A stretch of 64,000 bases of DNA. Source: Echinarachnius parma (Eukaryota; Echinodermata; Echinoidea; Clypeasteroida; Echinarachniidae). Positions 7,011-59,261 of this stretch are shown here, piece after piece. The notes under the pieces were generated by a model. The model had not been told where the DNA came from. It was given only the letters and a program-made list of their open reading frames with translations, and made no database searches. The stretch lies in NCBI GenBank assembly GCA_037951105.1, contig JBAMJV010007985.1, positions 33,418 to 97,417 on the forward strand, written 5' to 3'. How positions within the stretch are numbered: the stretch's first letter is position 1; every line of letters starts with the position of its first letter. The position numbers were made by a program, and so were the translations under genes.

Positions 7011-7804
7011 TGGGCAACTCCAGCGTCACGGACATTACAAACAGACAGTATTTTCATGACTTTCCAATGCCACTACTAATTCATACCTCTACCTAATGTC
7101 TAACTTTTATTTTGATTACAAAGCAATAGCCTGGTTAAGTATGCAAACAAAGTTTCAGAACATTTATCCAATTCGTTACTGAGTAATTCTGCAAAATGTG
7201 CGCCGTCACGGACATTACATTTTTTGGACATGACTTTTTGCATCCATATACATCTTTGCAAAAATCTGTGAGTTCTGAGACCTTACAAAGGTGATTTAGG
7301 TATTCAATTATAGACAAGGCAATGATGAATTGAATCCAAGTTGGATTTTGCGAAACGGGCCAGGTATATGTGATCTAGACAACAAAACGTTGTATCACGG
7401 ACATTACATTTTTGAGCGTCACGGACATTACAGTTTGTCCGGAGGATTTGATTAATTAAAAAATATACTTTAGAGCACTCAAAAGACTGAAATTTTAATC
7501 TGAAAAGTTACTTTGATTATCAGTCATCACATTTGGTGCCTTAAATAATAAAAATATTAGAAAATTTGGAAAATATAAGGATTTTCCTGAAATTTGCACA
7601 GGGTAGTCCCATGTGTGGAGTTTCATGTATGGTTTCCATTTCTCCTATAAGGAGACACCCGAGAATCATAAAAATCATGTGAACTGAAAGATATAATCAT
7701 AGGATCATGGTGTATGGAAAAATAATCCAGAACAAATCAATAGGATTTGAAATAGAGCCAATTGTTTTTTGGAGTTCATGTCCACTTTTTCGTGGAATTG
7801 CCCA
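7011..7804. mobile_element. TIR element with TCACGGACATTACA words (copy 1)
   Basis: The left end TGGGCAACTCCA and right end TGGAATTGCCCA are terminal inverted repeats, flanked by TA on both sides (7009-7010 and 7805-7806), as in Tc1/mariner-type insertions. The word TCACGGACATTACA occurs at 7026, 7206, 7395 and 7419, the first directly beside the left TIR. The first 430 bp closely match 28401-28830. A 60-codon minus frame (7135-7317) survives in both copies, but it reads straight through the words and is probably not a protein. No transposase is encoded. Confidence 0.8.
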
Positions 7805-14707: not shown

Positions 14708-14739
14708 TATGTCGTTAGAAAGTCTGTTTATTGGCAAAT

Positions 14740-18409: not shown

Positions 18410-18473
18410 AGCATTGAGCATGCGCATAATTTGTGTTCGTTCCACGTAATGCAAGCAGAGTACAATACAATTA

Positions 18474-18510
18474 AGTTCAAGTTCAAGTTTATTCCGACAG
18501 AAGGAAATAT
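18474..18510 (-). mobile_element. LINE-type 3' tail remnant
   Basis: On the minus strand the sequence reads TTCCTTCTGTCGGAATAAAC followed by CTTGAA repeats, the form of a non-LTR retrotransposon 3' end with a short simple-repeat tail. The copy B equivalent (25146-25225) has a longer, degenerate CTTGAA tract, showing repeat growth since the duplication. Confidence 0.5.
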
Positions 18511-18606
18511 GAACCACATGCTCTAAACAAACTCATCATAATTTCATGACGAAATTTATTAACGATTTCTTCTTGACAAAATATTAAATTAATAGTAATG
18601 GCTATG

Positions 18607-21544: not shown

Positions 21545-21585
21545 GGTTGACGAATGGGGTGCAATTAGCATCCAGGTAAATACGC

Positions 21586-22555
21586 TTAAAAGGACTAAGG
21601 CCCCTGTATAAATCGAGTATATTATTATTATTATTATTATTACACATGCGTCGGCTTTTAAAGCCGGCCCCGGGGCCGGCCTCACGCCGGCAATTTGAAG
21701 CCGCCTCGAGACCATTAAACCCCTGTTACACATTGCAGGACCCCTGTAATTATATTCACAAGATTCACGGTGATCAGGCCTCATATCCATATACGGCTCT
21801 GCTCATACCATATTTAGTGTTGGCATCAGCGCGCCCTTGTATCCCATATTAGGCATATTAAGCGACCTACTTCCTTATTGCGCGCAGTACGCGCGCGCTA
21901 CAAGCGAATTATGCGCGCGCTGCAAGCGCATTAAGCGCGCGCTGCAAGTTCATTTGCATATTCAAGCCGGCCTCAGTCCACTTACCCTGTTACACATACC
22001 GATTGCCGGACTGAGGCCGGCCTGAGGCCGGCTTCAAACCACATCCAGAGGTGGACAGAAATGGGGCCGGCCTCAGGCCGGCTTTTCAAAATTGACCCCT
22101 GTTACACATGAATGAAGTGGACTGAGGCCGCCTCAGGAGGCGGCCTCAGTCCACTTAAAAGGTATGTGTAACAGAGGTCTAAGTAACATTTTCCAAATCC
22201 TCCAAATCCGATAGCGGTTCCCTCATAGTCATACCTTGTTGTATTCTTATTAACAATACAATCATGGGACAGGTTTAGGTTTTTCAAATTTCCCTTTCGT
22301 AACAAAATATATGCACGATTGAAGTGTTCAGATATTGATTAATCCACTGGATCGTCAAAACCGTGATCAAAGTGAGTGCAATGAGTTATAATATCACTTA
22401 CGTTATTTGCTCATGCATAACTCGGCCATATATCGTCCTTTAAACTTAACATATTCACACAACATCAGATTGACATATCAGATAACAACAATATCCATTG
22501 TATCAACCACTTATCACTTTTTGCACATGTCAACAAAGTTAATAGATCCCTTTAA
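21586..22555. mobile_element. MITE family B copy split by an inner element
   Basis: The left 10-14 bp (TTAAAAGGACTAAG) and the right part from 22179 (CTAAGTAACATTTTCC to GATCCCTTTAA) are family B sequence. An unrelated GC-rich element lies between them. Copy A reads CGCTTAATGTAAC at 17415-17427, the empty site of the whole insertion. Confidence 0.8.
21600..22178. mobile_element. GC-rich palindromic word element nested in a MITE
   Basis: The element is flanked by CTAAG on both sides (21595-21599 and 22179-22183), consistent with a 5-bp target duplication. Inside are repeated words CCTGTTACACAT (four places, both orientations), GGCCGGC palindromes, ACTGAGGCCG in both orientations, and three copies of GCGCGCGCTRCAAGCG near 21889-21948. 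It is sharply GC-rich against AT-rich flanks. It has no coding capacity. Confidence 0.75.
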
Positions 22556-22748
22556 TTTAACTGTACAAGACCGTTGCGAGTGAAAATATTGCTGGGGCAC
22601 AAAATGCAAAATGCGTATATTTGATGACTTGCAATTTTTTGTATGCTTATAATTGATAACAATTCTTTCTGCTATGAGGTATAATGGTACTAGCTTTATT
22701 ACTTCCCTTTTAACCACACTAACATAATGATTGTTTACATTTTAACCC

Positions 22749-23128
22749 TTAAAGGGACTTAGAAACATTGTCCAAATTCTCAAAATTAATTTGAATTCTA
22801 GCGTTTCCCTCATACCTTGTTGTATTCGTATTACAAATAAAATCATAGGACAGGTTTCGGTTTTTAAATTTCCCTTTCGTTACAAAGATATGTACGATTG
22901 AAGTGTTCAGATAATAAATTATCCGTTGGATATTCAAAACCGTGTACAAAGTGAGTGCAATGAGTTATTGAATTATTGCATTTGTGATCATTACTCGTCC
23001 ATGCAACGTCCATTTGACTTGAAATGTTCACACAATACCCTAAGGACATATCAGATAATAACAATATACATTGCATCAACCATTCATCACTTTGTGCACA
23101 TGACAACAAAGTTACTAGATCCCTTTAA
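22749..23128. mobile_element. MITE family B insertion in copy B
   Basis: TTAAAGGGACTTAGAAACAT at the left and GTTACTAGATCCCTTTAA at the right. Copy A near 17600 lacks it. Internal blocks match 5312-5698 closely. Confidence 0.85.
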
Positions 23129-23956
23129 TGGGGTAAAACGCTGATACAATATCAGCCATCACCTTCAAGTGTGCAATTGTGTACACAAAGATGTGGTCTG
23201 CATCCTATGGTATGCAGAAATGCACCCCATAAGATGCCAATACCCCAATTTGGAGTGCAGAACTGCACCCTTAAGTGTGCTGCTATTGTAGCTGCAGCAT
23301 TTTGCCCCCTATCCACAGAAATACAATATAAATACTAGAACCCCAACTGAATAAGCGTATAGCGTTTTAACCACAGAGATAGGCCACACCTTTATCAGCA
23401 AGTTTTTGAAAATACGCACCGAATGTCATGCAAATGAGGTAGTACGTCAGATTTTTTTCATTTGAATAAATTATCAGACGTGGATTCATTGGATAAATTA
23501 ACACATTACGCAAAAAGATAAAGTAATTACGCATTGCGCACTTGCAGTTGCCATGGCATTTAAACACGCACTTCTCAGCAAAATTGCGCTTCATAATACC
23601 AAAGACGCTTCAGTATTCTAATTCATCTCTATTATTTTAATTACGCGCAGTACTAACAGTTACGCGATGTCATGTATTTAATTGGGCACAGTCAAGAAAC
23701 AGGGGATTTCCCTACTAGGATCAAAATATTGTTTTTCATTGTGACGTCAACAGAGGCATACCATAAATTCGTGCGTGATAATTGTGAAGTTCGCGCCCGC
23801 GCAATATTATGAATGAATTTACGCTAATATTACCATGGCAGCCAGTCGAATTAACATAACAATCGGTGGTTCTCTTCATTACAAATTTGGCCAACTTCCA
23901 TTTTGAGTTGGGGGGGCCTGCCCCTATCTGTGAACTAATTGTTTAGTGTGAAGAGT

Positions 23957-24493
23957 TTAAAGGGGTAGTTTAGTTTTGGTAAGGCTGAACTTTAGTAGCC
24001 AAAACCTCCACAGTAACATTATAAACTAATAGTTATAACTCCACCATACTCGAAAGGTATACAAAATTACAAACGACTAACTAAAAAGACTGTTATCATT
24101 CAAAAAGAGCCATTAAAACACAAGAGGGCGCTTTTTTAAAAGGCATTGGTTTCAACCATTTTTCATACAAAATAATGCATGTGATATTGGTAAATTGATT
24201 AAATAGCGAGATCATCAACAACTATTTAAAAAACGATTTTGAACATTTTTGAAAAAGTGCAAGCATTTTTTTTTTTTTAATAAAAATCATCTAATTATTT
24301 GGGCCCCAAATAATTATAAGATCATACATATTTATTGATATTTCAGGCGTTTCTTGGTCGATTTTGACCAAATAAAATTTATTCTGCCATTTAAATTGCA
24401 TGTTCTCTCAAATTCGACACTCAGTTTTTCATTAACTCACCAAAAATTGTGATGTGCAGCGCCTTCTCTACCAAAACTAAACTACCCCTTTAA
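23957..24493. mobile_element. MITE family C insertion in copy B
   Basis: AAAGGGGTAGTTTAGTTTTG at the left and AAACTAAACTACCCCTTTAA at the right, with GGGCCCC at 24301-24307. Copy A at 17801-17815 reads GAAGAGTTTAAACGTTAAT, the exact undisturbed target. Confidence 0.9.
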
Positions 24494-24722
24494 ACGTTAA
24501 TTATAATGGTTAATTTGTAGGTAAACTATTGGTGTTAATAGGGTTAATGGAGGTCGAGCGTCCGTTTCAGCTTGTTTACCAACGGATGCTCCACGTCCTC
24601 CGGCAGGATTTGTTTTAGTATTTTAATAATAATCGATAATAATCGATGCATAATGATGCCTTAACTCAACAAAAACTTCCCTGTCCAGAAAGACTATTGT
24701 ACTAGAATTGTATATGATAGTG

Positions 24723-25098
24723 TTAAAGGGATCTAGCTTCTATTTTTTGGCATATGCAGAAAGTGATGAGTGTTAGTATAATGTGTAGTTTTATTGCTAT
24801 CTGATATGTGTGAAGTATTGTGTGAAGTTTTCACGATGAATGGAGGTTACATGGACGAGTAGTAAGCGAAAATACTTAGTAATATTTACCAACTAATTGC
24901 ACTGATTTTGTACACGGTTAAGACTTTAGTTGAGAAACACCCCAATCATTAATATTTGTGTAATGAAAGGGAAGCTAGAAAAAAATGAAACCTGTTCCAT
25001 ATAACTGTTTCTATAATCCAATAAAACAATGTAAGAGAGAACTTATAGATTTCTAAATAAGTTTTATGGATTTAGACAGTGTTACTAGATCCCTTTAA
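24723..25098. mobile_element. MITE family B-variant in copy B
   Basis: TTAAAGGGATCTAGCTTC at the left and GTTACTAGATCCCTTTAA at the right. This is the paralogue of 18029-18409 and is shared by both duplication copies. Confidence 0.75.
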
Positions 25099-25352
25099 AG
25101 TATTGCGCATGCGCATGACTTCATATTCGTGCTCGTTCCACTCATTACGAATACGTTCAAGTTTGATTTCAAGTTCAAATGCAAGTTCAAATTTAAGTTT
25201 AAGTTCAAGTTTATTCCGACAAGAGGAAATATGAACCACATGCTCTTCTTAAATAGGTTAGGCCCCTCTAAACAACTCATCATAATTTCATTACCAAGAC
25301 ATTTGTTACGATTTCTTCATGACACAATATTCAAATAATAGTAATGTCTGTG

Positions 25353-25832
25353 TTAAAGGGGTAGTTTAGTTGTGGTATAGAGGGCGCTGCACAAAATAGT
25401 TGTTTTGTTACATAATGACAAACTAAGTCTAAAATTGCAATGGCAGATTAGACTTCATTTTATTTTGATCAAAATCCGCTCAGAAACGGTTGAAAAATCA
25501 ATGAATAAATCCGATCAAATTTCGGGTCAGATTTATTCGAGGATTTTTGTTTTTATTACAAAAATACTCATACTTTTTCAAAAATTGTCAAAAGAGGTTT
25601 TTAAATAGTTGTTGATGATCTCTTTTTTTAATAATTATTTCAACAAAACATCACATGTATACTCTTGTATGGAAATGGTTGAAACCTATGTTCTTATAGA
25701 GAGCACCCTCATGTGTTTGCAATTTTCTATACCTTTTGAGCATGGTGGAGTTACAACTATTAGTTTATAATGTCATTGTGCAGGTTTTTGTTACTAACGC
25801 TCAGCCTTACCAAAACTGTACAATTACTTTAT
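25353..25832. mobile_element. MITE family C copy with eroded right end
   Basis: TTAAAGGGGTAGTTTAGTTG at the left, but the right end reads CAAAACTGTACAATTACTTTAT, so the terminal repeat is decayed. This is the paralogue of 18607-19216, with a 3' internal deletion. Confidence 0.7.
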
Positions 25833-26050
25833 GGTTTACTAAGCACAAATATCATAAACATGGTGCTTTTATGTCAACATTTTACACAATATAATGTATT
25901 AACTGAAGTATTTATGACATGTCAAATTGTATCATTTTACTGGCGTAAAGTTTGCATTTTATATTATATCAAAACGGCTGAAATGTATATTGGGTCACGT
26001 TTTCTTTAATCTATGCTCAGTCAGCCATTACATGATATACATGTTTTCAT

Positions 26051-26690
26051 TTAAAGGGACAGATCCTCTTTTGCAAGCCAAATTTCAAAAGTTGCGAGAT
26101 TATTGTCTTATATGAAAGAAAATGTCATTTAATAGCATGCCTGAACAAATTAGGGCTTGAAATCTCTTTTTCGTGGAGTTATAGACCTAAAACTAATAAA
26201 CCGTCGTCCAACAAAACAATTGTGCATTATACGTATATTCACCCAGTGAGGAAGTTCGTACAGGGATTCCTAGAAGTACCACAACGCTATGCGTGACCCC
26301 TACGTGACTCGCGCTAGCTACGTGACCCACACACATATACGAATAGCATGACCGCACACTAGGCAAAATAACCAAACCACGCTTAAACTGACTACATGTA
26401 ATTACATATTCTTCATTTTTGAGATTTTTGTCCGTGACATACCTTTACAAATGTCGGCTTCACAATACTTTTGCAAGAATAAGTACAATATAGTTGTAAT
26501 ATTATGCTAAATCAGTTAAACTCTTTTATTGACCGATATATAGTCTGATGGAGGGACGCATTCGTTTTTCATTCATAGAATCCAAATTATAGGGCTGTCC
26601 GATCTTATTTTTTTGTGTGTGTTACATTCATCCCCATTCGTCAACTGGAAACTGTTCAGACGTTTTGTAAAAGAGGATCTGTCCCTTTAA
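26051..26690. mobile_element. 640-bp TIR element, AGGGACAGATCCTCTTTT ends
   Basis: The 18-bp inverted repeats are perfect, flanked by TTAA (26051-26054 and 26687-26690). Copy A reads TTTATTTAAGGGCCTTGC at 19454-19471, an intact empty site. The middle contains repeated ACGTGAC/GTGACCC words near 26285-26330. There is no transposase. Confidence 0.9.
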
Positions 26691-27599
26691 AGGCCTTACA
26701 AAGTTAAAACAATTTCAAACATCAAAGTAAAGTTTAGACGTAGGTTGGTGGGTTAAGGGCCATTTTGGATACAAACATATTTAAAACAAATTGGAAAGCC
26801 CCCCCCCCCCCCCCCCTCAAAAAAATAAAGATAAATAAATAAATGAAAATAAAGATTTAGTGTAAACAAAAAACTGCACTTCACTCGTCTCAAATCATAC
26901 AATGAATTTTGAAAAGTCATCTGTCCATGCCGGAGAATTGGATAGGGGGGTGGGTGGGGGGTGGGTGGTGGGTGGGTGGGTTGAGCTCTATACAAAATCC
27001 ATTTGGATGTTTGGAGCACGCACCCCCTCGCCCTGGCCCCTCTATAGGCTACTCCCCTGTTGCAGCAGCGCATGTAAGATCACGTTTATTTGAAGGACAT
27101 TCAAGTTATCCATTAACTTCATTAAATTCAACCAAAAATCAGTTGGAGCTCCCAATTCGCCCTAGACCTCGATCGTTTCTTGGTAAATGGCAACAGGTTA
27201 ATGAAAAGGGCATTTTTATTTTCAAAATCTTTCCGGTTTCATGGATATATTTATAATTGTATTGAAAGCGTTCCGGAGCGCTTTCCGATGGTAGCCAAAA
27301 CCAATCTGCAGTACATAATAACGTGGGACATAAATGTTGACCTTCTCCACTCTTGAGTAAACAGATTTGTCTTTTCATAAGACTGTCACCCATCCTTCAG
27401 AAGGACATTACAATGACATCGGTAAATGAGTGAAGTTTCAACTTTGTATTTCGGACAAATCGTACAAAGTTAAAAATCACTTCGATGATGGGGTATTTAT
27501 CGGTATTTATCAAACAACTCTGCCCATTCTCTCGGCATCGCTCGGCACACAATTGAATGCACACTAACAATGGCGCGCGCATTGCTTGCGTGTTCAATG

Positions 27600-27730
27600 G
27601 TATATTTATTTATTTATTTATTTATTCAGTCTTCTTTTAAAAAAAAACACAGGGTAGCCCCATTCAGAGCCACAAAGGCCTGCTTTACAAGAGGGCCCTG
27701 TATCAGATAGAAATTACAATGTGTACATTA
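27600..27730 (-). mobile_element. LINE 3' end remnant with TTTA tail
   Basis: On the minus strand the sequence runs from GGCCTTTGTGGCTCTGAATG to GGGGCTACCCTGTG and then a run of AATA units. This is the typical shape of a CR1/L2-like LINE 3' end. No reverse transcriptase is attached. Confidence 0.5.
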
Positions 27731-28343
27731 AAAACACAGCATAAAGATAACGGGCAGTAAGTGCGATTTATCAGGCACTGACTTGGTAAAAATTTGCAAA
27801 AATGGGACCCTGACATGGAGTCCTCACAGCGCCCTAAAACAACTACGCGACCAAAATTACTGTTTTTGTTTTCGTTTTTCATTGGAAAAGAAACTTTATC
27901 CGTTGAACATAATCATTTTGTTACTATATTTTGGGAAGTGCCCCGTTCCGTTTGTTTGGGCCACCCTGTATTACAATGTGTTTCCTTCCGATAAAAGCAT
28001 GATAAGTATTCCATCCAAACTCGAAAACCATAACATTGAATGGTGTTCGCAGTCCGAGATTGTGTTTAATTTATTCATTGATATCTCACAATCGATGACA
28101 AGTGTCACACAATTATCAGTATCATCATTATCAGTTTGTTTCGTTTTTAATCATCACTTTATTAGGCAAATTCTGCCAATTAAAAGGAAGTACGTAACTC
28201 AGGACACTGCATAATAACTGCCAGCTCAGGGCAGTAAAAATGGTAACAACATCAAATTTAATACATAAGATGTGTAACACTTGGTTAAGTAATTAAGAAT
28301 TGTTCATAATTATACATCAAACAATCAACAGGATAGTTTGAAT

Positions 28344-28398
28344 GAATGAATGAATAACTTTATTACCAAAAGGTTCAAATATAACAATCATACATGTA
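28344..28398. repeat. GAAT microsatellite, possible retroelement tail
   Basis: GAATGAATGAATGAATAACT is followed by TTTATTACCAAAAGGTTC. The pattern suits a minus-strand LINE or SINE 3' end, cut off at the TIR element that begins at 28401. Confidence 0.5.
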
Positions 28399-28400
28399 TA

Positions 28401-30068
28401 TGGGCAACTCCAGCGTCATTACAAATCAGAGAATTTTCATGACTTTCCAATGCCACTACTAATTCATACCTCTAACTAATGTCTAACTTTTATTTTGATT
28501 ACAAAACAATATCCTAGTTAAGTATGCAAAAAAAGTTTCAGAACATTTATCCAATTCGTTACTGAGTAATTCTGCGAAATGTGCGCCGTCACGGACATTA
28601 CATCTTTTGGACATGACTTTTTGCATCCATATACATCTTTGCAAAAGTCTGTGAGTTCTGAGACCTCATAAAGGTGATTTAGGTATTTAATTATAGACAA
28701 GGCAATGATGAATTGAATCCAAGTTGTTTTGGGGGAAACGGGCCAGGCATATGTGATCTAGACAACAAAACGTTGCGTCACGGACATTACATTTTCAGCG
28801 TCACGGACATTACACTTTTGTCCACTTTTTCTAAACTCAGAAATAACCCGCAAAAAATGCTCCATTGTGCATGACACTTTTTTAATTGTACATTTGATAT
28901 GTAATCAAACAGTTTTGAGAACAAAAATTATATTTCAATTTTTTTTTTTCAATTAGCAAAAAATTATTTTAAAATATTAATAAGTTTTTCCAAAATTATT
29001 GTAAAATTTGAAATTTTTCAACAGAATTTGCAGTAAACCAAATGTTCAACTATTAAAAAAAATATTATACATTTTTAATGAGGTACAATGCTGTTTTGTG
29101 CCAAAAAATTGTAAAATCTAAAAAAAGTTGTGTACATCATGGGCATAACACATGGAAAATCATGGACTAAGAGTATAATTTTTGCAATTTGATCATACTA
29201 TATGAGATTTAACCATCTCTTTCTCCTCCCAGTAAGTTATAGTCAAGTCTTTATTGATTATTGAGACATGCATGTTCAAATTAAGCAAGGAATTTAGTTT
29301 TATAAATAGTTCAGAGTACTGACTCAAAGTTCACTATCTGATTAACGATACAATTTATTAAAATTTGAACCAGGAAGGTAGTAGTCCCCCAGTTACTTGG
29401 GATTATCTTATTTCTTGGCTAAAGTAAGACATTTACATAAGAAAATAATGCTTGATATTTTTTTGCTCTGCTTTTTTATACTTTTCACTGTGTATGTAAT
29501 GTCCGTGACGCAGCAGTGATGTAATGTCCGTGACGCCATTCTGGACAAGCCATCAAATATTTAAGTAAATGCTCTTGATATACTTTATGATATAACATTC
29601 TAGCTTTGCAAATGAATTTTGAATTAAATTGAATTAGGACTTCTGCTTCTACAAAAACGTTTATATCTAAAACGTCACGGACATTACACATCAATGTTGT
29701 AAGAATCAAGATTTTATCCAATAACAGTTTTCAAAAAGTAAAGATTTTTACACAATTTCCTTTTCTATGATGTTAAAACAAAGCATAAACAAGACATTAT
29801 AAGTAGAATTATTGTTCTGAAGTGATCCATATTTTTAACTTTTATTTCATAAACAACGGATGCAAATTTCATCATTTTGGGGGGTAATACATACAATTTT
29901 TGTCCCAACTTCAATGGCCAAAAAAAAAATATTCTGCATTGAATTTCAAACTTTTTTCCTTTCGTCATCAAAATATGGTCCTTCCTCATTACTATCCAGT
30001 AGTTAACAAGGCTGTCCCATGAGTTTCATTTTTCTATCCTTGGGTGACATTTTTCGTGGAATTGCCCA
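28401..30068. mobile_element. TIR element with TCACGGACATTACA words (copy 2)
   Basis: The ends TGGGCAACTCCA and TGGAATTGCCCA are flanked by TA (28399-28400 and 30069-30070). The word lies at 28589, 28778, 28801 and about 29675 (direct), and inverted at 29495-29511 and 29520-29536. The TIR-adjacent word at 28413-28423 has lost its middle (GCGTCATTACA). The left 430 bp match 7011-7440. The 1668-bp body is AT-rich without a transposase; a 60-codon minus frame (28518-28700) matches the one in copy 1. Confidence 0.8.
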
Positions 30069-30204
30069 TATAAGAAATGTTAACGTACAAACAAATTGGT
30101 AAAAGGACCCTACAGAAATAGCAGCTATTGTTAGTGGGGCGTAGGACCCTTTGTACATGAATAAATGACTTACATTTAAATGAGGCAAGAAAACTATGAT
30201 TAAA

Positions 30205-31784
30205 TAACAGTCTATACTAAGTATTTACAATAGTGGACATTCACTCACTAATAACAACAACACTATACGGTTATATAAAACATATCAAATATTTTCAAAA
30301 GAATACAAAATCTTTGGCAGCAAATCACAAAAGATTATGAGACGTAATGACTCAATAAATACTTTTTTACATTTATCTTAATAAGGTGGAGTCTATCAAG
30401 TCTTAGTATCTCCAAAGGCATACTATTCCAAATATCAGAACCCTGAAATGAGATTGAAGTTTTTCCATGCTCTGTTCTCATCTTAGGCTTAACCAAAATA
30501 TTTCCATCTTTTTGTCTTGTATTATAAGAGTTTTCGAAAAAGGTATAATATTCAAACACTGAGTGTGGTAAATGTTTATAAATTAACTTAAAAATAAAAA
30601 GTGTTACTAACAATTTATGCAGCTTAAACACATCTAATATACCTAATGAATAAAACAATGGGGAGGATGAGGCCATTCTATTATTGAAAGTAATTGCTCT
30701 GAATGACATTTTTGTTAACATCAATATTTTGTTCATCAACATCAAAGGTGCACTTCCCCAGACTTCAAGGCCGTAAGATAAGTGTGACTGAATAAACGAA
30801 TAATACAATAATACAAGGACTTGTTTGGGAACAAAGTGTCGTAGTCTATACAAAATTCCTACTTTCCTACGAAGTACAGAGCATAAATTATTTATATGTT
30901 CATCCCATACCAAATACCTATCACTATATATTCCAACGAAAAGAGATACGTGTACTTCATTCAATAACTCATTCTTCATTTTTACAACTCCAACAATACG
31001 ACACTCTTTTCTCCTTGGCTTAATAATCATAAAATTTGTTTTCTTTATATTAATCTTATTCGCATCACACCACTCATCAATATGTTTTAAATTATCAGTT
31101 ATTTCCAATAAATCAATATCTGCCTGATTAGGCAAAAGTGAATGAAAAAACATTAGAGTCATCAGCAAAGAGTCTAAAATTAAAGTAGTCTGATGATCTA
31201 GGCAGATCATTAATATAAATCAAAAAAGTGTAGGACCTAGAACAGATCCCTGGGGCACCCCACATTTAATTAAGGACATGGCAGAAGTGGAACCATTATG
31301 ATGCACAAACTGACGACGGTCACTCAAATAATCACGAAACCAATTCAATTGAGTTCCTCGTACACCATAATTTCCTAACTTGCCCGAGAGTATATCATGA
31401 TTCATTGTATCAAATGCTTTAGCAAAGTCAACAAAGACACCTACAGTAATTCGACCTTCATCCTGAAACTGGATTAACTGATTTATCAAGCTAATCAGTG
31501 ATAAATTTGTACTATGCTTTTCCCTGAAACCATACTGATGTTTATACAATAAATCATATTTTCCCAGGAATTTCCCTAAACGAATATTCACTAACTTCTC
31601 AAACACTTTACTTAGAATAGGTAAGACAGATATAGGCCTATAATTCCCTGGATCAGTTCTTGTACCTTTCTTATACACCGGACTGACTCTGGCTATCTTC
31701 ATAGAACGTGGGAAGACACCCAATTGACAAGACGTATTCAAAATATATGACAGTGGTTGCGACACATAATACACACCATCTTAG
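30205..31784 (-). pseudogene. LINE reverse transcriptase, 5'-truncated and frameshifted
   Basis: The minus strand encodes a non-LTR reverse transcriptase of the CR1/jockey type. The segment 31774-31220 shows NYRPISVLPILSKVFE, GFREKHSTN, the catalytic block FVDFAKAFDTMNHDIL and GVPQGSVLGP. Near 31226 a T run is one base short and shifts the frame. The FADD catalytic box lies in a short stretch of another frame (about 31211-31150). A second shift then restores the frame of 31150-30335, which carries thumb-region sequence (EVWGSAPL near 30755). The 5' end is cut at a family C MITE (31785). It cannot make an active enzyme as it stands. Confidence 0.85.
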
Positions 31785-32880
31785 TTAAAGGGGTAGTTTA
31801 GTTTTGGTAGAGAGGGCGCTGCACGTCACAATTTGTTTGTGAGGTAATGAAAAACCGAGTGTCGAATTTGAGAGAACATGCAATTTTAATGGCAGAATAA
31901 ACTTTACTTGGTCAAAATCGACCCAGTAACGGCTGAAATATCAATCAATATATTTGATCTAATAATTATTTGGGCCCAAATAATTAAAGGGATAGTTGAG
32001 TTTTGGTAGAGAGGGCGCTAGACTACTTCTTTTTTTGTGAGGTAATGAAAAACCGAGTGTAAAATTTGAAAGAGCATAATATTTACATAATAAAATCATC
32101 TTTGTTTGATCTAAATCGGTTCAGAGACGGCTGAAATATCCATAAATATAACAATTTGTAATAAACCTGGGGCCCCGGGTTTATTAGAGAATTTTGAACC
32201 AGCCGTTAAAAATTCAGAAAAATGCTTCCTCTTTTCAAAAAGTAACAAAATAGGTATTTAAATAGTTGTTGGTTATTTCTCTATCTAATCACTATTTCAA
32301 CAAAGCATCACATGCACAATATTTTATTTAAAATGGCTGAAACCAATGAGTGTATAGAGAGCGCCCTCTTACGTTTTAACGGCTATTTTTGAATGATAAC
32401 ATGACCTTTACTACGTCATTTGTAATTTTGTGTTCCTTTCTACTTATAACTATTAGTTTGTAATGTAATGATGCAGGTTTTGGTTACTAAAATTCAGTTT
32501 CACCAAAACTGTACTCTCCTTACCAGAACTCAACTATCCCTTTAACTGATTTTTCAAAAAATTAAAAAAATGCTTCGCTTTTTTTTAAATTGTCAAAAGC
32601 GTTTTTTAAATAGTTGTTGATGATCTCTTTATTTAATCATTATTTCAATAAAACATCACATGCATAATTTTGTATGAAAAATTGTTGAAACCAATGCTTT
32701 TCTAGAAAGCGCCCTCTTGTGTTTTAATGGTTCGTTTTGAATGATAACGGGCTTTTTAGCTAGTCGTTTGAAATTGTGTATACCTTTCGAGCATGGTGGA
32801 GTTATAACTATTATTATAATGTTACTGTCCAGGTTTGGTTACTAAAGTTCAGCCTTACCAAAACTGTACTACCCCTTTAA
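31785..32880. mobile_element. MITE family C, outer copy interrupted by a nested copy
   Basis: The outer element starts TTAAAGGGGTAGTTTAGTTT and ends AAAACTGTACTACCCCTTTAA. Its left part (31785-31983) and right part (32546-32880) join to a standard family C body, as judged from 23957-24493. The inner element occupies 31984-32545. Confidence 0.85.
31984..32545. mobile_element. MITE family C, inner nested copy
   Basis: AAAGGGATAGTTGAGTTTTG at the left and AACTCAACTATCCCTTTAA at the right, closely matching 14144-14707 including the GGGGCCCC core near 32171. It lies in the middle of another family C element beside its GGGCCCAAATAATT core. Confidence 0.9.
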
Positions 32881-34324
32881 CATAAAATAATATGTGTAAT
32901 AGCAAATCAAATGCCAGTACAGTATGGAGACATGGTTCTTGACTTCTCGGTCTGAACCGCCACTAGCAGACCAGGACCCCGTTGCAGTCAGAGACGCAAC
33001 CGAATGCAGATCACATCCAAATTCAAGATCAGATCACGCGTAAATGAGCAAATCTGATTGGTCGAAACACGCACATCTTCTGACCCACAACCATAGAGAA
33101 ATATCTAACTCTATGCCCACATAATAATTATTTTGACAATTGCTACAATAGTTTTTAAAAACAAGTTAATGACATAAGCTAAAGACGTGTCTACACAATC
33201 TCAGAAGTATTGCTTCAGACCAAAACAAATAACATTACGAATTATTGCAGCAATATGCTGTCTAATTGTGTTTAATATGTATTATTGTAAGGCAGTTTAG
33301 GTTTATCTTATCAGCGAGGCTTTATACAATATAATTTCACCAAAGAAAACAACACATACAATACAAAATTATCTGTCTACTTATTATTCATAATTACACA
33401 GTCAAAAAAACAATTCAGACGTTATCCGCGAAATTCATCAAACTGACCCGACTTCAGCGTAAGTGGGGTATTTCCGTATTTTGCTAAGCGACTTGGAAAT
33501 CTGCGTGTTTGACAGTCTATATCGTCCAAGTTCGCGATTATGTTGTGATCCTTTTCCAATTTGTATTGGCAACTTCATTCATCCATTTAGTAAATTTACT
33601 ATAATTTGTGTTAATAGTTCCTCAGGTTTGTGTCGACTGGATGGTTTTATTGTGCATCATAATATGGTCATCATGTTTTGTTCGAAATCACTTTATCGAC
33701 AATTTACATATACATGAATGGAAAATGCTTAAATATGATATATATACAATATTTACAATATATTATGTCCAGGTCAAGGCATTTACACACACTTTCACAA
33801 TAACTTGACATACAAGAGGGCAAAAGGACAATGGCACTATTGAACGAGCAGAGTTTGAGACTACTTCGCAATAATTATATAGATACAAGGATGTGCAAAA
33901 TTAGACTTTTTGCATATATCAATGTGACTATAAAGCGCTTACAATTAACTTTAAATGTGCACATGTAAAGTGTAAGATATTAGACACTTTACAGGCCTCC
34001 CTTCAACAATTAACAATTAACGAAGAATTTGTGATAATTTCCCTCATAATGGTTTAATTTTTTTACAATAAAGTAGAATAAATGTGTTAATTTAGTCAAA
34101 TGCCACCTAACTCAATATAAATTGCATAATTATAGTTCGTCTAATTTCTTTTGTTTGAAAACCAAGTACTAAATATTCAAAAAGACAAACACGCTTTAAA
34201 GAAATAAGTTAGGGCTCACCCGGTTCCTGTATGTAACGGATAAAGAATTCCTGCCTACAAAATCTTAGAAACAAAATCAGTTTTTGCAACAACGCTGTCT
34301 TTCTCAGTCTCTCTGTCCTGAAAT
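32881..34324. other. Gene-free stretch downstream of gene 2
   Basis: No separate gene is supported. The part nearest 34325 should be the 3' UTR of gene 2 on the minus strand. At about 32974-33075 a degenerate block (CCCGTTGCAGTCAGAGA, AATCTGATTGGTCGAA) is related to 36439-36545 and 57107-57239, a short dispersed repeat family. A plus frame at 33463-33717 shows no family features. Confidence 0.5.
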
Positions 34325-34448: not shown

Positions 34449-37400
34449 TGATGAGTGATGAGCAAATAAATATTCAATAACGATATTGCGAAAAGGGTCA
34501 TTGTTTGTTAATGGTTGATACAAAGATTATTTAAGAGAACTACATCATCTTACTCAAACCCAAATTAGAAGATACCATTATCATCCTATTACAGCATTGT
34601 TAGGGTCTTGACAAATTTATAGTTACATCAATGTAACCATGTAAGCAGGTCACATTTTGAGGATACATTTTAATGTTGTTATGCAACGTCACGTTAGTCA
34701 TAGCCTTTGCTGTTATTCGGTATGGGCAATTCCACGGTAACGGAAGGACATTCAGACACAATTTTGGAACTTCAATCAAATAATTCCAGGATCCTGCTTT
34801 TGATTTTTTATTCTAAATGGCATGTCTTTGATCCTTGTTGGGACACCTTTGATTTCCACTATTTCTAAAATTTTGACCGCATTATGTAAATTAGATATGG
34901 ACACTAATGAGGCCGGTAACGGAAGGACGCCAAAATGGACATGGATTTTCAATTTTTTTAGTTATGACCCAATCTCTGTGAAGTTACGAGGTTTATCATG
35001 TTAAGTTGGCTACTAGTCAATTTCCTTATGTTCACAGAGTATTAACACCACCTTTTAAGAAAAATATCTACATTGGTATATTAATTATGAGAAATTAATT
35101 ACTCCAGTGTTCGGTAACGGAAGGACGGTAACGGAAGGACCTCTGAAAAGTCTATTGGAATTGTACAATAAAATTAATTTTGAAATTTAAAGACCATTTA
35201 TGAGAAGGAAACATCTCTTTTGTGGTCTAAAATGAGTTTGTATCATAGATAGCATATGGACATCACAAGCATTTACATTTCTATTTTTTTCTTACTATAT
35301 TTCATGCTCCAATGGCTCTTATTCATGGTAAATCCATGGTAACGGAAGGACACTCAGACACAAATTGTCAACTTTAAGAAAGACATTTTTAAATACTTGT
35401 GTTGTTAGAACAGTCTATTTTGATAACAATACTTCCAAAACATACAGTTTTAAGGTCCCATCATTTTTTTTTTTTTTAATCTCCGCACATTATTGAATAT
35501 GCATACAAATGAGGTCGGTAACGGAAGGACACCAAAATGGACACGATTTTGTTATCAAATCAGTTTTAACTAAAACTCTGTGATATTAAATAATACAAAA
35601 TATTTTAAGGGTACACATTTCATTCTCTGAAGGGTTAAGAAGAATTTACTTGTTCTTTGATTAAAATTTGTCCGCAGATATTTGAGTTATTTCACACAAA
35701 GCGGACCAATGTTCGGTAACGGAAGGACATAATGGACTATAATGTATGATATGACACAGTAAGGGTCATTCCATGTCAAATCACCTTTAAAAAAATAGAA
35801 AATTTTCATCGCAGCCCCCTTCAAATTTGCTAATATTTGGTATGTATGATATTTCAACCTTTAAAAGTGCAAATATTTAAGTTTTAGCCCAATCCGCCCA
35901 ATGGTTTTGGCGCTATAGTCGATTCTTATGGGGGAGTTTTGTAAGAAATGGGCGTGGGCACCATTTTTCAAATGGCCATTGTCCATTAACCGTTGGGTCA
36001 ATTTATTTTGTAAAGGTGTCATTGGACTGGGGATGTTATGTGCAATCCATTTATGCCATTTGTGTTCATGCATGAGCGAGTTTGGATACGATAACCTTTG
36101 ACCTTAGATTTTGACCTTCCGTTTTACCTCGTGGATCAAAAAAATTTGAGAATTTGTTTTGCTTAAATCTTGGCTTGATATAATTTCTACAACATATGAA
36201 AGAATTGGAGATATCTTATTTCTTGCTTTTTCTACAGCCTTGTTTTTAGTTTGCAAATTTCATGTAAAATTTAATTATTTTAGACCTACACCCATGTCCA
36301 AGAATTCTATAGGGGTGTATTGTATACAAAAAGACCTATTCAAAGTCATGATCAGAGCCTATTCACACCCTGGCTCACCACAGTTAAATAGACCTACTAA
36401 TCCCCATACAATAGAAATCCAGACAAATGGCATCATGGTACAAGGGCCCTGTTGCAGAAAGTGATAAAATCAATTGTGAGCCAGATCAAATGTTCTAAAT
36501 GCACAAATCTGATTGGTTGAAACACAGAAAATTACTAGTCTGACCACGCTACGCCACTGATAGCTGGCCATTGCAGGTATTGTCTCATTATTTTGGGTTT
36601 TCATATATGAGAGACCAATTTTTTAACATAAATTTTGTCATAATATGTAATATGAGGTACCTTGTCCATCTGTTACCATGTGTATGGTAACGGAAGGACA
36701 TTTTCTTTTGTTATTTATTAATTAACGAAGAAACAATGAGTAATAAAATTGTTAGCAATGGGAAGGCCTACTTGAACTTGCTTTGCACTGAAGATCGGTC
36801 TGCTCTCTAACAATTATGTGAGCCACAAAATTAAAAATATAAATGTTTCGGTAACGGAAGGACATTTTCATAGGCTGAAAATAAGAAGTCATTGAAGCAT
36901 AACAAATCAAATAAATCATACAAATTTACTATTTTACGAAATGGTCATATCTCAGGAGTCAGAATTGCACTGAAGATCGGTCTGCTCTCTAACAATTATG
37001 TGAGCCACAAAATTAAAAATATAAATGTTTCGGTAACGGAAGGACATTTTCATAGGCTGAAAATAAGAAGTCATTGAAGCATAACAAATCAAATAAATCA
37101 TACAAATTTACTATTTTACGAAATGGTCATATCTCAGGAGTCAGAATAATGGTTTTTAGGCTTAACTGGGGAAATATTAAACAAACACAGGATCAAAACA
37201 CTTTTTCCCCAAAATGTCAAATTTGTGGGGTTCAATTATGGTTATAAAGTTATTATAAAAAAACAACTAAAATTATGTAAAACTAAAATTTTCTCATTGA
37301 ATTCCAAAAATATAGAATTTAAGCTTTGATTTGATACCAAATTTGTATCATAAAAATGCTTGTAAAATTTTTGGTCAAATGTCCACTTTGGCGTGGAATT

Positions 37401-37932
37401 GCCCGTATGGTAAATTTTCTTTCAGAAAAAAGGGTGGATATGATTGTCTTCTCGGTAAGCATTACCTTATTCGTGTCTTTGGTATAATGAAGGCAATATG
37501 TTAATCTCCAATTCATCATTCAAATAATATCACTATGTTAGATTGTGATATTATGGTTGTAAATTTCAAAACTAACATCTGAAAAATTGCTGTAATCGAA
37601 CGTTCATTTTCAGTTATACATATTGCCTTCTCCAGAACGTGATATCATAACAAATAATTTATAAACAAATACATTCGCGAAATTTACATTTTGATTGAAT
37701 TCTAAGAAATAAAGTGAACGTGGAAGGACAGGTTGTATAACTTACAGCAAATGTTGTTATAACCACTGTTCCAATGATGATTCCGGTCAAGTTCTGGTGA
37801 GTAGATTTTACTGAAAGGGAATAGAGTTGATTGTTGTTGTTAAGAAACGTATGTGGTTATAATATGTATTATTCTATAATAATAATTATTATTATTATGA
37901 CTATTTGTTTGTTTATTATTTTCAGTAGTAGC

Positions 37933-46900: not shown

Positions 46901-49900
46901 AAAGATCACTGAACCAAATGGGAAAACAAAAACGGAGGAGTTGGTTTAAAAATGAAACAAACACAATCATGCTATAACAAACATAATGGCAATAAGTATA
47001 ACATCCAATTGTGCTCTTTCTACAGTCATATTTCGTATCGTTTCCCATAATGTCCAAATGATTTACCAATTTTGTAATCCATTCAACGAGACTTAACACT
47101 ATTATTTTAACACCTCCACATTAAAAAAACAACAACAAATTTCTTTGGTCATGTACTGAGTTCTTTGTCCAAAGAATTATTTTATATCGGCATGCAATGA
47201 TAAAGTTCTTTTTCTTCACGAACATCAAGGGAATGTCTATATAGTCCATTGTCTCAGCTTCCTAATTAATAACATTTTCATTCCTTAAAAATTATCGGAA
47301 TACTGACGATGACCACCACTCCAGCAATCCGCCGTGATCGATGTCCGTGGTCGTGTACGTCATGTTAAATACTATCTGGATATGGGATAGTACATTCCGA
47401 TTATCAGCTTCCATGTCGCTGTCGAGGTCGTTTTCTGCATCGTACGTTATCAAGCGTTTGCGGGTGAGTTGACAAAAGGTGACTTCCTACGGCCCGGATA
47501 ATTCCAGCAAAGGCGTCTGTCTCATGAGACGCAGGGCAGGTTGTCTTTTCGTCAACGTCGACCGCGTGGTGGTTGCGATATCTAAAACTACACTATATAA
47601 ATTACCGGGCTCGTTCCAACGTGCAATGGCCAACGGAACCATGGCAACGGCCCCTCAGCTCCGATTTCGGCGCGACCACTTTTTACAGATACCCAGTATG
47701 TTCCAACACATACTGGCTGTATCACAACGCGACTTACATACAAATTAACCTAAACTACATATATCGCACCTCGCTTCATAATCCACAACTGCAACGATGA
47801 CCTCAAGGCTCCATATCGAAGACAATAATTTATCACAATAATACATGTACAAATCTAAATAGCCTTATTTCTCACAAATACAATGAGGTTAAAACACAAA
47901 CAAATCTCCATGCTCGTTTTAAATCAAAGAAAGCTCTACATAATTTTGCGAATCATATCCATAACTATTTTCTTTTCTCCGAACAATGTGCTAGCTGAGA
48001 CTAATGGCGTATAAAGGGTTTCCCTCGAAGACGTCGAATTACAGAATATTTGCATTCCGATAGGTAAGGTTCTAGGTAATACCTATGCAGTACCACGCGA
48101 GCTCAAGCTTGACCGCACCATCTCCGCACGCGAGAATGGAATCGTAGGACGGCATCGCGCATGACGTCCGGCGTTGAGATTCCCGCAATCGATGTCGATG
48201 AGGTCCAGCATGATGACGGCGATGACCAACGGTCGGCGAGATGGACGATGAAGACAAAGTTTGCTCCGCTCCTGCTCCATGACAGTGAGGCCACCAGCTC
48301 CTCCTCGAACTCATCGCCAACAAATCGATGACCACCAAGAGCCAGCACACGCCGAACTTATCCATGCTGGACACCATGACCAACTTTAACATCGATCTCT
48401 TATTCGTCCATGGTTCACGAAGAACGCAGCTACTCTGGACCCAAGCTAGTTTTCTTTTTCTCGAGCATCGTCGCAACTTTAGCACCGTATTCAAGATCGT
48501 CGAGGTCCATATTATCACTATTTAGCGGCATGTCCGAGGCACGTGTTAAAATCTCCCGTCAGTTTCATGACCAAGGCACGTGTTGAAGTCCAGCATCCCA
48601 CTTCTGACACCAGTGTAACGGTTTTGTCGATTTGACGGACATATGTTATGGGATGAAGATGATGATGAATGTGAATTATGCCAACCTCTTGCTGATATTC
48701 TTAATGCATCTTTTCAACAGGGCATAGTTCCTTGGCAGTGGAAAAGGGGCCAAATTATTCCCATTCCCAAATGTCAACCGCCAAAATTAGACCAGCTTCG
48801 TCCGATATGCTTAACAAGCCAATTCGCTAAAATTGCTGAATCATGTATTACTCAATGGCTTCTGGATGACATTTCGAAATACATTGACCCTCATCAATAT
48901 GGAAATAGACCTGGTTTATCGACTTCTCACTATTTGATAAAATTGTTACATGAAATGTATACAAACTGTGAAAGATCAAAATCGATTTCAACCATTGTGT
49001 GCACAGATTTTTCGAAAGCCTTCCATAGATTAGATCATAATATTTTAGTTTAAAAATTAATTGAACTCAATGTAAGGCCATTTTTAATTGATTGGATAAT
49101 AAGTTTTTTAGAACAAAGATCGCAATGTGTCAAATATCAAGGTGTTTTGTCTGAATGTAAAAATACCCATTTTGGGGTACCTCAGGGTACGAAGTTGGGC
49201 CCAATTTTGTTTTTAATAATGTTTAATGATGCTTGCCAAAATATACTATTACCATACTTTAAGTACGTTGATGATCTCACCTTGTTAGAAAATCGAGTAT
49301 CTCAAGATCCAGTGTCTATGCAAAATATTTTGACTCAATTAATGGAATCGTCAGATAATAATCATATGAAATTGAACCCACTTAAATGTATAACAATGTC
49401 AGTTACCTTCATGAAAACTCCTCCTCCATTTGACACTTTGTATATCGGTGAATCGCCTCTCCCAAATGTTCAAACAGTTAAAATTCTTGGGGTGTATATT
49501 CAATCTAACTTAAAGTGGGATGACCATGTCAATGAGATATTAAAGAAGAGCAATACAAAATTATATATGTTCAGAATGGTTAAGAAATATAAATTACCTA
49601 TTGTTACATTGGATATATCTATACTAGAATATTGTGTACCAGTTTTTAATGGCGGATTGACTTTGAAGCAAGTACAAAGTTTAGAAAGAGTTCAAAAGAG
49701 GGTTTGTCGAATAATTCTAGGGAAAGATTATATTAGTTATGAAAATGCAATTATTGAATGTAAGCTTGAACGCCTTGAAACTAGAAGAGAAAAACTTTGT
49801 ATTGAATTTGCTAAATCACTCTCTAATAACCCACATTGTAAAGATTGGTTACCCAAACAAAAAAATGTAAATATTTCTTTGAGATATATACCAAAGTTCA

Positions 49901-52900
49901 ATCAATATAAATGTAAAACAAACAGATTTAGGAATAGTGCAATACCATATTTCATTGATCTTTTAAATATCCAATGAAATTTTTACTTCCCAGGTATATG
50001 CACTTTGCTTCAAATCAAATTAAATTAAATTAAACTACAGTTACGCATGCATCTTCTTTGTTAATTATACAAAAATGTGCCACATTTTTAAAAGTTTATA
50101 CTTTTGTTTTGATGAAATATTTTGTTCTACTGTACCTCATGTGAATTTAAATGTTATGAATGAATATCATTTTAATTTGTATCTAAATGTATTGATTTCG
50201 ATGTAAACATCAACATTTCAGCCTTTGGGCTGCCGTTGTATGTAGCAATGCTTGTAACTTTTGAATGTTTTTTTTATTGAAATAAAACCATTATATCTAT
50301 CTATCTATCTATCTATCGAATGATGAATGTCTGGATGGCCGAGGTTATATAGTTCTAAATCACAATCATAATCACATTCACTCTGTAAAGCACGTTCCAC
50401 AAGCTTCGATATACAGATAACAGTTGGCGAGAGTTATTCGGTTACTCGTTTATTATTCACTGAACTCAGCATAAATCCAACATGAGGTATAACCTCACAT
50501 CGTGAACATCGATCACGATCTCCAACGCCCAGATGTGACTACCTGGACTTGTACTGAACATGGCAAACACCAACTCCCAGGTTATCACTCTACAGACTTA
50601 GACTTAGACACTCAACTTAATCTCAACGTATATGAACCCCGAGTGAGAGAGATGTCGAGCTTATATAGGCTAGAGGACAAAGGATGACATCTATTAAGAC
50701 ACTAACTAAAAGGTTACTAAATGCAGCAAAGAACAAACTCTAGCGACTTGACATTACAATGGACTTACTTCTTAGAAATACAGTAATCCCTAAACATTAC
50801 AGAGCTTAAGGTTAAGCTAACAGCAACATCTGAGAGAAGGGTCTACACAATAGAGGGTGTTACTGTAGGTAAGTGTGAAGTTCATGTCTACAGGATTAAA
50901 GCAAGATTAAAGACAGGGTAACACAGATTTAATGACATCAAAGAGCATCACCGCTCTTGAGAGGGGTGAACGGGTAAACAATGGCATTATGAGGTGAGGG
51001 TTAAGTGGGAACCAATTCACACGGTTTAAGTGAGTGGATAAGTTGCTGGTTGGTAAACAGCGCAATAACAAAGAAGTAACAGACTATATACATGGAGACT
51101 ATTAAATGCATGTATCTACATTCGTAACAATACAATGGACAAAGGGCCTGTTTGGCAACTCCATTTTGGTATGCTTCTTAACATGAATTGATACTTAACA
51201 AAATAATAAACAGTAGTTAAATTACGAGTTGAGAGCTGTATTAACAAATTAATCCCGGCCACAGTTCAAGTGTAAAGAGTTGTGTTTAAACAATTCGCAC
51301 GCTTTGTCATTATACCCAGCACGAGGCATAAGCGGCTCACACGACATCCCTTTTTACATTATCATAAAGGACCTTTCAGAATACATAAGAAGACTTTGAG
51401 CAGTGGCAGATCTACGGGGGGGGGGGGGGGGGGGGGGGGAGGGGTTTAGGGAGTTTAACCCCCCCCCCCCCCCCCCCTCTTGGGCTGTCAACTGTGCATA
51501 GAAAAACGCCATCATGTGTCCAGACCCACACAGTATCCGCATCGTCATTGGGTCAAACCCCCCCCCCCCCCCCCCTCTTAGCAAAAAGCTAGATCCGCCC
51601 CTGTTGAGCATTGTTAGTTAGTCTTAAAGGACTTTGGGACTGCTACTGGACTTTGTATGTAAGACTTGATTTAACATATAACTATTTATTTTGTTCGCAT
51701 CAGTATCATCGCGAAATATTTCAATACAACTGTCGACTAAAGTCGAAAGACATTATAGCACTACGTTCAATTTATTACATTTATGTTGCAGTTAGAGAAA
51801 TTAAAACCCTACTAAATGGAAGTAATGCGCATTTCAGTTTAACTTACATGCTCCAAAGTATGTCGATTGGATATTGTTGCAGTTCCCCGTTGCACGATCC
51901 TTCTTACACAGGTAGTACGACCCCACGTCATATGTATCCATGACTGGTATCTCGATTGCGCAGTACCATGACCCACGTGGTGCGTTAGGCGTTACATCCG
52001 TCACATGCTGGACGCGGTATCTGTATCCCCTTCCAGGTCCGCAAGAATTATTATGTGGCGTTTGGCACAAGATAATGTCTTGAGAACATCTTGCATCTCG
52101 GTCTTGTATTTTACTTAGAGATACCTCGTAGTAGATGTTTGCTGTTGTTCCTAGTTGAGCTGATACTGGGAAGAATCCATCGGGTGGTTTTTGAACGGCT
52201 AGAATGATCGAAATAGAGAGGTTAAAATGTAAATAGGGATGTTAGTGTTTTTTTAAATCGCTTATTTTGGTCAGGAGTTTACGTTGTATTATGATGCAGA
52301 TATGATTGATAAAACAGATTGAAGAGACATTTCCGTATTTTTGAATATTTTGTTAACAAGCTCAATCAAAGGTATATGATATAAAGGAAAACACATTGAT
52401 GAGGGGTGGCAGCTAACTAGCCAATAAATCTAACAAATTGCTGCAAAGGTAAGTTATTTTGGAAATGCGGAACTATCACTTGATAAAATGACCAACACGT
52501 TAGTTACGCAATTTGTAATTTAGTAAAGGCAATGCAAAAGCAGCGTTATCAGATACTCAGTTCATAGTTGTCTGGAGAGAAAGTTTTAATATGTAAAACA
52601 ACAAATTAATAAATTAAAAAGTCAGACTTTACTGCATGTGTGTTACCCCATGGGTAGAGCATTATGGGAAGGGGGCAAGCCAGTTTGGTATGGTCTCCCG
52701 AGGATCCAAATTAAATATGCACTTTGGCACATGATAAATATGGACATTTAAAAGATAAAAGAATATGAATTTAGTAATTTACTGTGTCAGTTATCACGGA
52801 ACCAAATCAACTCTAAAATGAATAGGTATTGGCGTGTTTATATTTGGGTAAATTATATTTTCACAGGCGATGTTGGAGTTAAGCCTTAAGGTGATACCAA

Positions 52901-59260: not shown

Positions 59261-59261
59261 G

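Follow-up and report, generated by a model that had tools for sequence, protein, structure and literature searches.

Tips and words of three elements in one genomic window

The analysed stretch, referred to here as the window, comprises 64,000 nt of contig JBAMJV010007985.1 from the echinoid Echinarachnius parma (assembly GCA_037951105.1, positions 33,418 to 97,417 of the forward strand). It harbors three non-autonomous elements, W1, W2, and W3, which have ends of the type TGGGCAAYTCCA and carry several copies of a short word at defined distances from the tip. The original prediction, made from the sequence of the window, described the tips and words of these elements. It proposed that all words within an element had been altered together, either by conversion or by selection to match a new transposase. 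The observation was confirmed as a whole, and the interpretation was partly supported. When the window was searched for TGGGCAAYTCCA with up to one mismatch, 7 matches were obtained, 6 of which were the ends of W1, W2, and W3. Shuffled sequences gave a mean of 0.64, and none of 100 shuffles reached 7, which bears out the shared ends. The right end of W3 (37394-37405) has one mismatch to TGGGCAAYTCCA. With up to two mismatches, TCACGGACATTACA matched the window 10 times (shuffle mean 0.52) and GGTAACGGAAGGACA 11 times (shuffle mean 0.05). The elements and their words, the latter assigned by word match, are the following.

7011..7804, + strand: W1, short non-autonomous element of word class GTCACGGACATTACA; both ends (7011-7022 and 7793-7804) exact
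7026..7039, + strand: W1 word 1
7206..7219, + strand: W1 word 2, just before the shared TGGACATG motif at about 7225-7232
7395..7408, + strand: W1 word 3
7419..7432, + strand: W1 word 4, tandem partner of word 3
7447..7804, + strand: right half of W1, without words, 77% identical to its counterpart in the short GGTAACGGAAGGACA-family form
28401..30068, + strand: W2, longer non-autonomous element of the same word class as W1 (GTCACGGACATTACA); ends exact; relative L016
28589..28602, + strand: W2 word 2
28778..28791, + strand: W2 word 3
28801..28814, + strand: W2 word 4
29495..29508, - strand: W2 right-arm word, newly found
29520..29533, - strand: W2 right-arm word, newly found
29675..29688, + strand: W2 right-arm word, newly found
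34723..37405, + strand: W3, long non-autonomous element of word class GGTAACGGAAGGACA; left end exact, right end with one mismatch
34736..34750, + strand: W3 word 1
34915..34929, + strand: W3 word 2, followed by TGGACATG
35113..35127, + strand: W3 word 3
35127..35141, + strand: W3 word 4, tandem partner
35327..35729, + strand: second, diverged left-arm copy within W3, with words at 35338, 35517, and 35715
36663, inverted: degenerate W3 word of the GGTAACGGAAGGACA class
36686..36700, + strand: W3 right-arm word
36850..36864, + strand: W3 right-arm word, first unit of a 182-bp tandem duplication
37032..37046, + strand: W3 right-arm word, second unit of the 182-bp duplication

All word coordinates of the original prediction were correct; its list lacked three words in W2 and six words plus a degenerate one in W3. 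The spacings of 180/189/24 in W1 and 179/198/14 in W3 were also correct. The first spacing of about 173 in W2 turned out to be an artefact, because the first word of this copy has a 6-bp deletion; in intact copies, the words stand at 15/194/383/406 (L016) and 15/194/383 (L008). The sequence beside word 2 had been described as related, and the TGGACATG motif was indeed common to W1 and W3. Full-length relatives of W1 are L012 and L015, and relatives of W3 include L010 and L013. The two left-arm copies of W3 (34736/34915/35113 and 35338/35517/35715) are both spaced 179/198, with flanks of 74-82% identity. The tandem duplication at 36783-37146 is exact, with one word in each 182-bp unit; L010 has a single word at this place. 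A stretch GGGTCATTCCATGTCAAATCA at about 35762-35785 lies inside W3 and resembles the tip of another repeat family.

By our own reading of the end flanks, 17 of 19 end pairs had matching 2-bp duplications (the exceptions were L009 and L019). These varied in sequence, and TA, AA, GT, TG, and GG all occurred. Among 65 ends not picked by their flanks, TA directly preceded 26, position -4 was C or T in 59, and position -3 was A in 45. TA, which had been proposed as the common flank, is thus the most frequent flank but not a general one.

Word families in the genome and a change in place

We searched the genome (1.2 Gb, 14,790 contigs) for further copies. Exact TGGGCAAYTCCA sites were present 6,330 times, compared to 32 for the reversed control. 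Tips followed after 2 bp by GTNAC-N(5-7)-ACA occurred 1,978 times, and the control gave 0. Loci (L numbers) were sampled as 20 paired-end regions and 20 end regions, taken from 100 listed TGGGCAAYTCCA places, and 20 copies of the W3 family among 53 exact tip-plus-word matches.

Coordinated alteration of the words in place was clean in one pair of families. The GGTAACAGCGTGAC family (L020, L056, L070) and the TGTAACGCCGTGAC family (L002, L007, L068), both from outside the window, have flanks of 93.0% (left arm) and 80.4% (right arm) identity. Columns 1, 7, and 8 of the 14 word columns were altered in 6, 6, and 7 of 7 homologous words, respectively, and the remaining 11 columns in 3 of 77 cells. 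With tandem words counted as one site, and even when the higher of the two flank divergences is assumed, such a pattern would arise by chance with a probability of about 6e-9. The pair supports the earlier suggestion that the words behave like protein sites that are altered together.

Independent variation of words within an element had been named as a finding that would speak against this suggestion. Doublets of the form GTAAC[AG][GC]CGTGAC-N-GTAAC[AG][GC]CGTGAC occurred 855 times in the genome, and the mixed doublet AGCG-then-GCCG occurred 0 times, a count that covers this order only. In this order, the check did not overturn the suggestion. The letters were viewed for 8 of the 855 doublets: 4 were AGCG/AGCG and 4 were GCCG/GCCG, so that all 8 were matched. 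Two further pairs were less clean. L017 and L027 have blast segments of 68-88% identity, and six of the eight words could be aligned. The third base differed in all six (A to T), and the second in five (T to G). Between L014 and L055, TGACG was changed to TCGCG in 4 of 4 words, with flanks of only 50% identity. Within the W3 family, words 2-4 varied less than their flanks, both in the 19 long copies (1/798 versus 59/6818, p=0.010) and in the 9 short copies (5/353 versus 118/3209, p=0.013). Word 1 was excluded from this test because the copies had been selected on it.

In the sampled loci, 12 word classes were repeated within elements, namely GTCACGGACATTAC, GTAACGGAAGGAC, GTTAGTAACGTTAC, GTAACTGACGTTAC, GTGACAGACGGGAC, and GTTACGGACGTAC, and also GTGTCGGACGTAC, GTAACAGCGTGAC, GTAACGCCGTGAC, GTAACGGAATTAC, GTAACTCGCGTTAC, and GTTACGGGTGTTAC. 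Two more (GTTAGGGACATTAC and GTTACAGAATGAC) are known only as first words. Of the distinct arms that span 560 bp or more, 93 of 99 had a recognised word with up to one mismatch. No word of a foreign class was found at this threshold in any of 20 elements or arms (153 word hits, with near-palindromic words counted on both strands), as expected from the claim of one family-specific form per element. Words of different classes resemble each other, with a mean edit distance of 4.1 versus 8.4 for shuffled words; one way to read them is as a pair of GTNAC-like half-sites separated by about 4 bp.

The positions of the words were conserved in further families, as had been asked of the original spacing data. 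The first word starts at base 15 in all placed left arms except that of L028 (17). The second follows at 183-202 and the third at 370-400 from the left end, and one or two tandem copies come after it. The right arm has words at distances of 356-376 and 512-546 from its end. In complete forms, the tip-adjacent word is absent on the right, and many right tips bear a GACAT motif. With one hand-entered representative per family, and hence to within 1 bp, the mean positions were 192.5 (standard deviation 4.4) for word 2 and 384 (8.0) for word 3 in 11 families each, and 364 (5.7) and 528 bp (7.5) for the right-arm words in 10 families each. Mere inheritance is an unlikely cause of this constant spacing, because blastn found no common sequence between the words for most pairs of families. 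We note in passing that the step length, about 165-195 bp, is similar to that of a nucleosome.

The contrast between the two word classes of the window had a different origin. W1 and W2 are alike only in their left part (95% over 300 bp). Alignment of short W1-type copies (W1, L012, L015) with short copies of the W3 family (L024, L034, L040) gave 47% identity in columns 1-440 and 77% in columns 445-809, with a sharp change near column 445. For one left-arm pair of these short families, the identity of 46% was within the range of 20 shuffles (mean 45%, maximum 51%), and the number of matched columns was 189 versus a shuffle maximum of 174. A trace of left-arm homology therefore persists. Visibly common to both left arms are the tip, the TGGACATG motif, and the word positions. 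We concluded that the short forms of the W1 and W3 families had exchanged an entire arm together with the words on it. The homology proposed for the elements thus holds for the right halves of the short forms and as a trace in the left arms, which are otherwise nearly unalignable. A swap of words in place does not explain the window contrast: inferring it from this pair alone was unsafe because the whole arm was exchanged, and the inference holds for GGTAACAGCGTGAC/TGTAACGCCGTGAC. An arrangement reminiscent of a fold-back element occurs at G000:C139, where left ends of the GTCACGGACATTACA class at 4155 and 4551 point towards one another across about 400 bp.

A Transposase_21 gene and the possible role of the words

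A search of the genome with the PF02992 (Transposase_21) profile gave 17 matches. One of them, on contig C1014, is a frame of 775 aa at 15774-18098 (E 5.6e-9, 36.0 bits, cut-off 28.6). A right end, TATA|TGGGCAATTCCGGATGAGAG, lies at 13616, and words of the GTAACGGAATTAC class follow where the position rules predict them, at 13977, 14132, 14148, and 14165, i.e., about 361, 516, 532, and 549 bp inward. Exact ends of the GTAACGGAATTAC family were found 257 times (right) and 488 times (left) in the genome. All three fetched copies with the C1014 right end (L080-L082) shared the terminal 693-695 bp with 93-94% identity, and also two shorter segments beyond the transposase gene with 84-93%. This pattern would be expected of internal deletion derivatives. 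The 775-aa gene is present in six identical copies, and open transposase frames of 450 aa or more occur in nine distinct versions in the genome (775, 784, 549, 756, 807, 874, 546, 694, and 474 aa); the 775-aa and 807-aa proteins are 36% identical. No relatives of the 775-aa frame were found in the PDB at E up to 1. A repetitive frame of 328-335 aa precedes the transposase frame of C1014, and no TnpA-like gene was identified. The search for an autonomous copy thus yielded a transposase-bearing relative for one other family, a candidate autonomous copy whose left end was not found up to 28600.

The 11 elements checked for coding relics have no coding capacity. Their longest stop-free stretches (76-108 aa) are within the range of shuffles, which were run for 3 of the 11 elements (mean 79-83, maximum 127-130).

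In the GTAACGGAATTAC family, a further complete tip of like orientation lies about 1131 bp into the element (L058:14 and 1144), and a different word, GTTACAGAATGACA, comes after it. L028, of the same family, has its inner tip 2203 bp inside (101 and 2304), and the same offset was seen at many genome places. Both transposase loci, G000:C1014:24558-25046 and L076:5191-5665, contain a repeat with TATGGGCGATTCCG (93% identity over 490 bp), possibly another inserted family with TGGGC tips.

We consider it likely that the elements are non-autonomous relatives of CACTA/EnSpm and that the words are subterminal binding sites for the own protein of each family. Binding of the words, the identity of the binding protein, and selection as the cause of the change are what we infer from these data. 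The near-constant tips (TGGGCAAYTCC) and the GACAT motif would serve a conserved catalytic step, and the words of 13-15 bp would recruit the element-encoded protein, a tnp2-type transposase or a TnpA-like partner, at both ends. Fixed word distances would allow the two ends to pair or assemble. When the specificity of the protein drifts, selection would keep those transposing lineages that have matching sites, and the words of a family would change alike as a block while the tips, the GGACAT motif, and the spacing persist. Non-autonomous copies would follow the lineage that still mobilises them, and further variation would come from words that multiply in tandem and from families that trade whole arms.

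Several points weigh against this interpretation. Word 2 of L002 bears only part of the change from GGTAACAGCGTGAC to TGTAACGCCGTGAC; its two odd bases can be read as CpG decay. Older copies have mutated words, with 4 of 8 exact in L019, 3 of 8 in L027, and 2 of 5 in L011, and 6 of the 99 arms had no recognised word of the known classes at up to one mismatch. The genome samples are small: of the thousands of places, at most 200 supplied loci. Copies of the W3 family make up too large a share of them, since these were selected by tip and first word. The link to a transposase was made through the GTAACGGAATTAC class and not through the two classes of the window. The left end of C1014 was not found in a search up to 28600. 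At L076 (PF02992, 807 aa), neither tip nor words were found within 6 kb; the ends may lie outside.

The strongest alternative, which we nevertheless regard as unlikely, is that the words are sites of an element-encoded anti-silencing protein or of a host factor and do not act in transposition. VANC proteins bind short motifs within non-coding regions of VANDAL elements, and their targets differ among related elements, according to the portion of the report compared here (PMC5735166). The right-arm words of C1014 also stand between the tip and the transposase frame. On the other side are the first word at 15 bp from the tip in the placed families (17 in L028) and the fixed spacings at both ends. 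Recognition of the element ends fits better, because these spacings are also found in non-coding copies and at both ends.

Gene conversion or replication slippage, which would homogenise the words of an element without any changing protein, is less probable still. The tandem array at words 3-4 comprises one to three copies and varies among close relatives (one copy in L020, two in L056, and three in L002), and the motifs of VANDAL21 show related tandem-repeat dynamics according to the part of the same report considered (PMC5735166). However, the distant words (15, about 195, about 392, and in the right arm) change as well. In 8 elements, words separated by at least 30 bp had an inside similarity of 0.99, a value biased upward by the limit of one mismatch in the word search. 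The bases next to the word gave 0.75 and 0.62, and similarity was near the background of 0.28 beyond one base outside. Conversion, which had been suggested as a cause of the joint change, is not supported because the tracts would need to be about 15 bp long with borders that respect the words.

A placement of the group in another superfamily (ISL2EU/Harbinger), with a Transposase_21 gene that was merely inserted beside the right end, is very improbable. ISL2EU elements of animals likewise have 2-bp duplications, and they start with GG; the genome holds at least 150 matches to DDE_Tnp_4 (PF13359). The published duplications are AT only in the section of the ISL2EU report compared (PMC4482050), in contrast to TA, AA, GT, TG, and GG here, and ISL2EU was set aside for this reason. 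Its transposase is of the THAP/HTH/DDE type with a YqaJ partner. Of the 6 DDE_Tnp_4 loci fetched, two encode THAP-HTH-DDE proteins of the ISL2EU type, and none has TGGGCAAYTCCA ends within the fetched stretch. Moreover, shorter copies match the sequence on both sides of the Transposase_21 gene. A search with PF13613 gave 12 matches. That whole arms were only ever exchanged between old families and that words never changed in place is barely credible: the two short families show such an exchange, but the AGCG/GCCG pair, with its highly identical flanks in both arms around altered words, contradicts it for that pair.

Returning to the reading of the words as binding sites for each family's own protein, a more speculative extension, which we hold only tentatively, is that the words might be an address code. 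Families with interchangeable tips and arms would be set apart solely by a private word at indexed positions. New families would then arise by replacement of the whole word set, mixed intermediates being quickly lost, and each family would thereby be freed from titration by its parent's non-autonomous copies. In this picture, the nine distinct transposase frames would act as keys that fit different words. The problem addressed is the joint change of specificity in a DNA-binding protein and in its sites, which are many and scattered. The genome offers a graded series, from sister families with 93% identical flanks and a three-base word change to families that are alike only in tips and spacing. 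Together with the transposase frames, of which there are at least nine, this series makes the matching of words and proteins directly testable by binding assays. The arm exchange also shows that a non-autonomous copy can pass from one family to another when one of its arms is replaced.

Other features were seen in the window and near the sampled copies. Open frames at 30335-31774 (- strand) and 48643-49977 (+ strand) resemble, as judged by eye, reverse transcriptases of elements without long terminal repeats. Several diverged copies of a 100-300 bp repeat lie on both strands at 14143-32884 and 59260-59558. Two open frames near sampled copies encode a RING/B-box protein and a rhodopsin-type receptor, which fits an animal genome.

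Classification and comparison with known systems

The 2-bp duplications, the TGGGC tips, and the family-specific subterminal sites suggest a CACTA-related group. We make this assignment because a right end and words of the GTAACGGAATTAC class flank a Transposase_21 gene and shorter copies match both of its sides. Of the features that define CACTA/EnSpm elements, a Transposase_21 gene inside the element was found for one word class only (C1014). A target duplication of 2-3 bp is present as 2 bp in the 17 end pairs, and subterminal repeats of 10-20 bp occur in direct and inverted orientation. The tips (TGGGCAAYTCC) do not begin with CACTA as in the canonical plant elements, nor do they have the CCC core of TRC elements. 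The right-end pattern had no match in a viral collection, and the tip string TGGGCAATTCCA occurred in 4 papers of the literature, whose titles point to subjects other than transposons. IS481EU was dropped as a candidate, since duplications of 4 or about 15 bp are given for it in the part of the report compared (PMC10045372).

TRC elements (SmTRC1) share the Transposase_21 gene, the 2-bp duplications, and the animal host with the elements described here. Their tips begin with CCC, which their authors suggest as the tip core, and a subterminal word system is not described in the portion of the report compared (PMC1636069). In VANDAL elements of Arabidopsis, element-specific motif sets likewise change jointly with a protein family of matching targets, as the compared part of that report describes (PMC5735166). 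In contrast to the present elements, VANDALs are Mutator-like, their motifs are spread by tandem repeats, and VANC acts against silencing.

The coordinated swap had been considered unusual; for relatives of CACTA, similar cases have already been published. In soybean, Tgmt* and Tgm1 have conserved tips and diverging subterminal repeats, and a co-evolving TnpA-like protein was proposed, according to the excerpt compared (PMC2613891). Two motif versions thus occur with conserved tips in one species. The Jozin CACTA element of Chenopodium has 19-23 copies of a 12-bp motif in species-specific forms. The motif form also differs between elements there; however, the difference is between species and not between coexisting families, and fixed spacing is not reported in the part of the article compared (PMC8978399).

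The elements of E. parma resemble plant CACTA elements, including those of soybean, in Transposase_21/tnp2, the short conserved tips, the repeats of 10-20 bp in both orientations, and the asymmetric ends. They differ from them by tips of TGGGC instead of CACTA and duplications of 2 instead of 3 bp. They also have few words at fixed, near-nucleosome-sized distances, at least 12 repeated classes that coexist, and one swap traced in place between flanks of 93% identity. The principle as such is already known. New here, as far as the passages of the literature compared allow, are the breadth, with a dozen coexisting word classes, the fixed grid of positions, and the swap traced in place.

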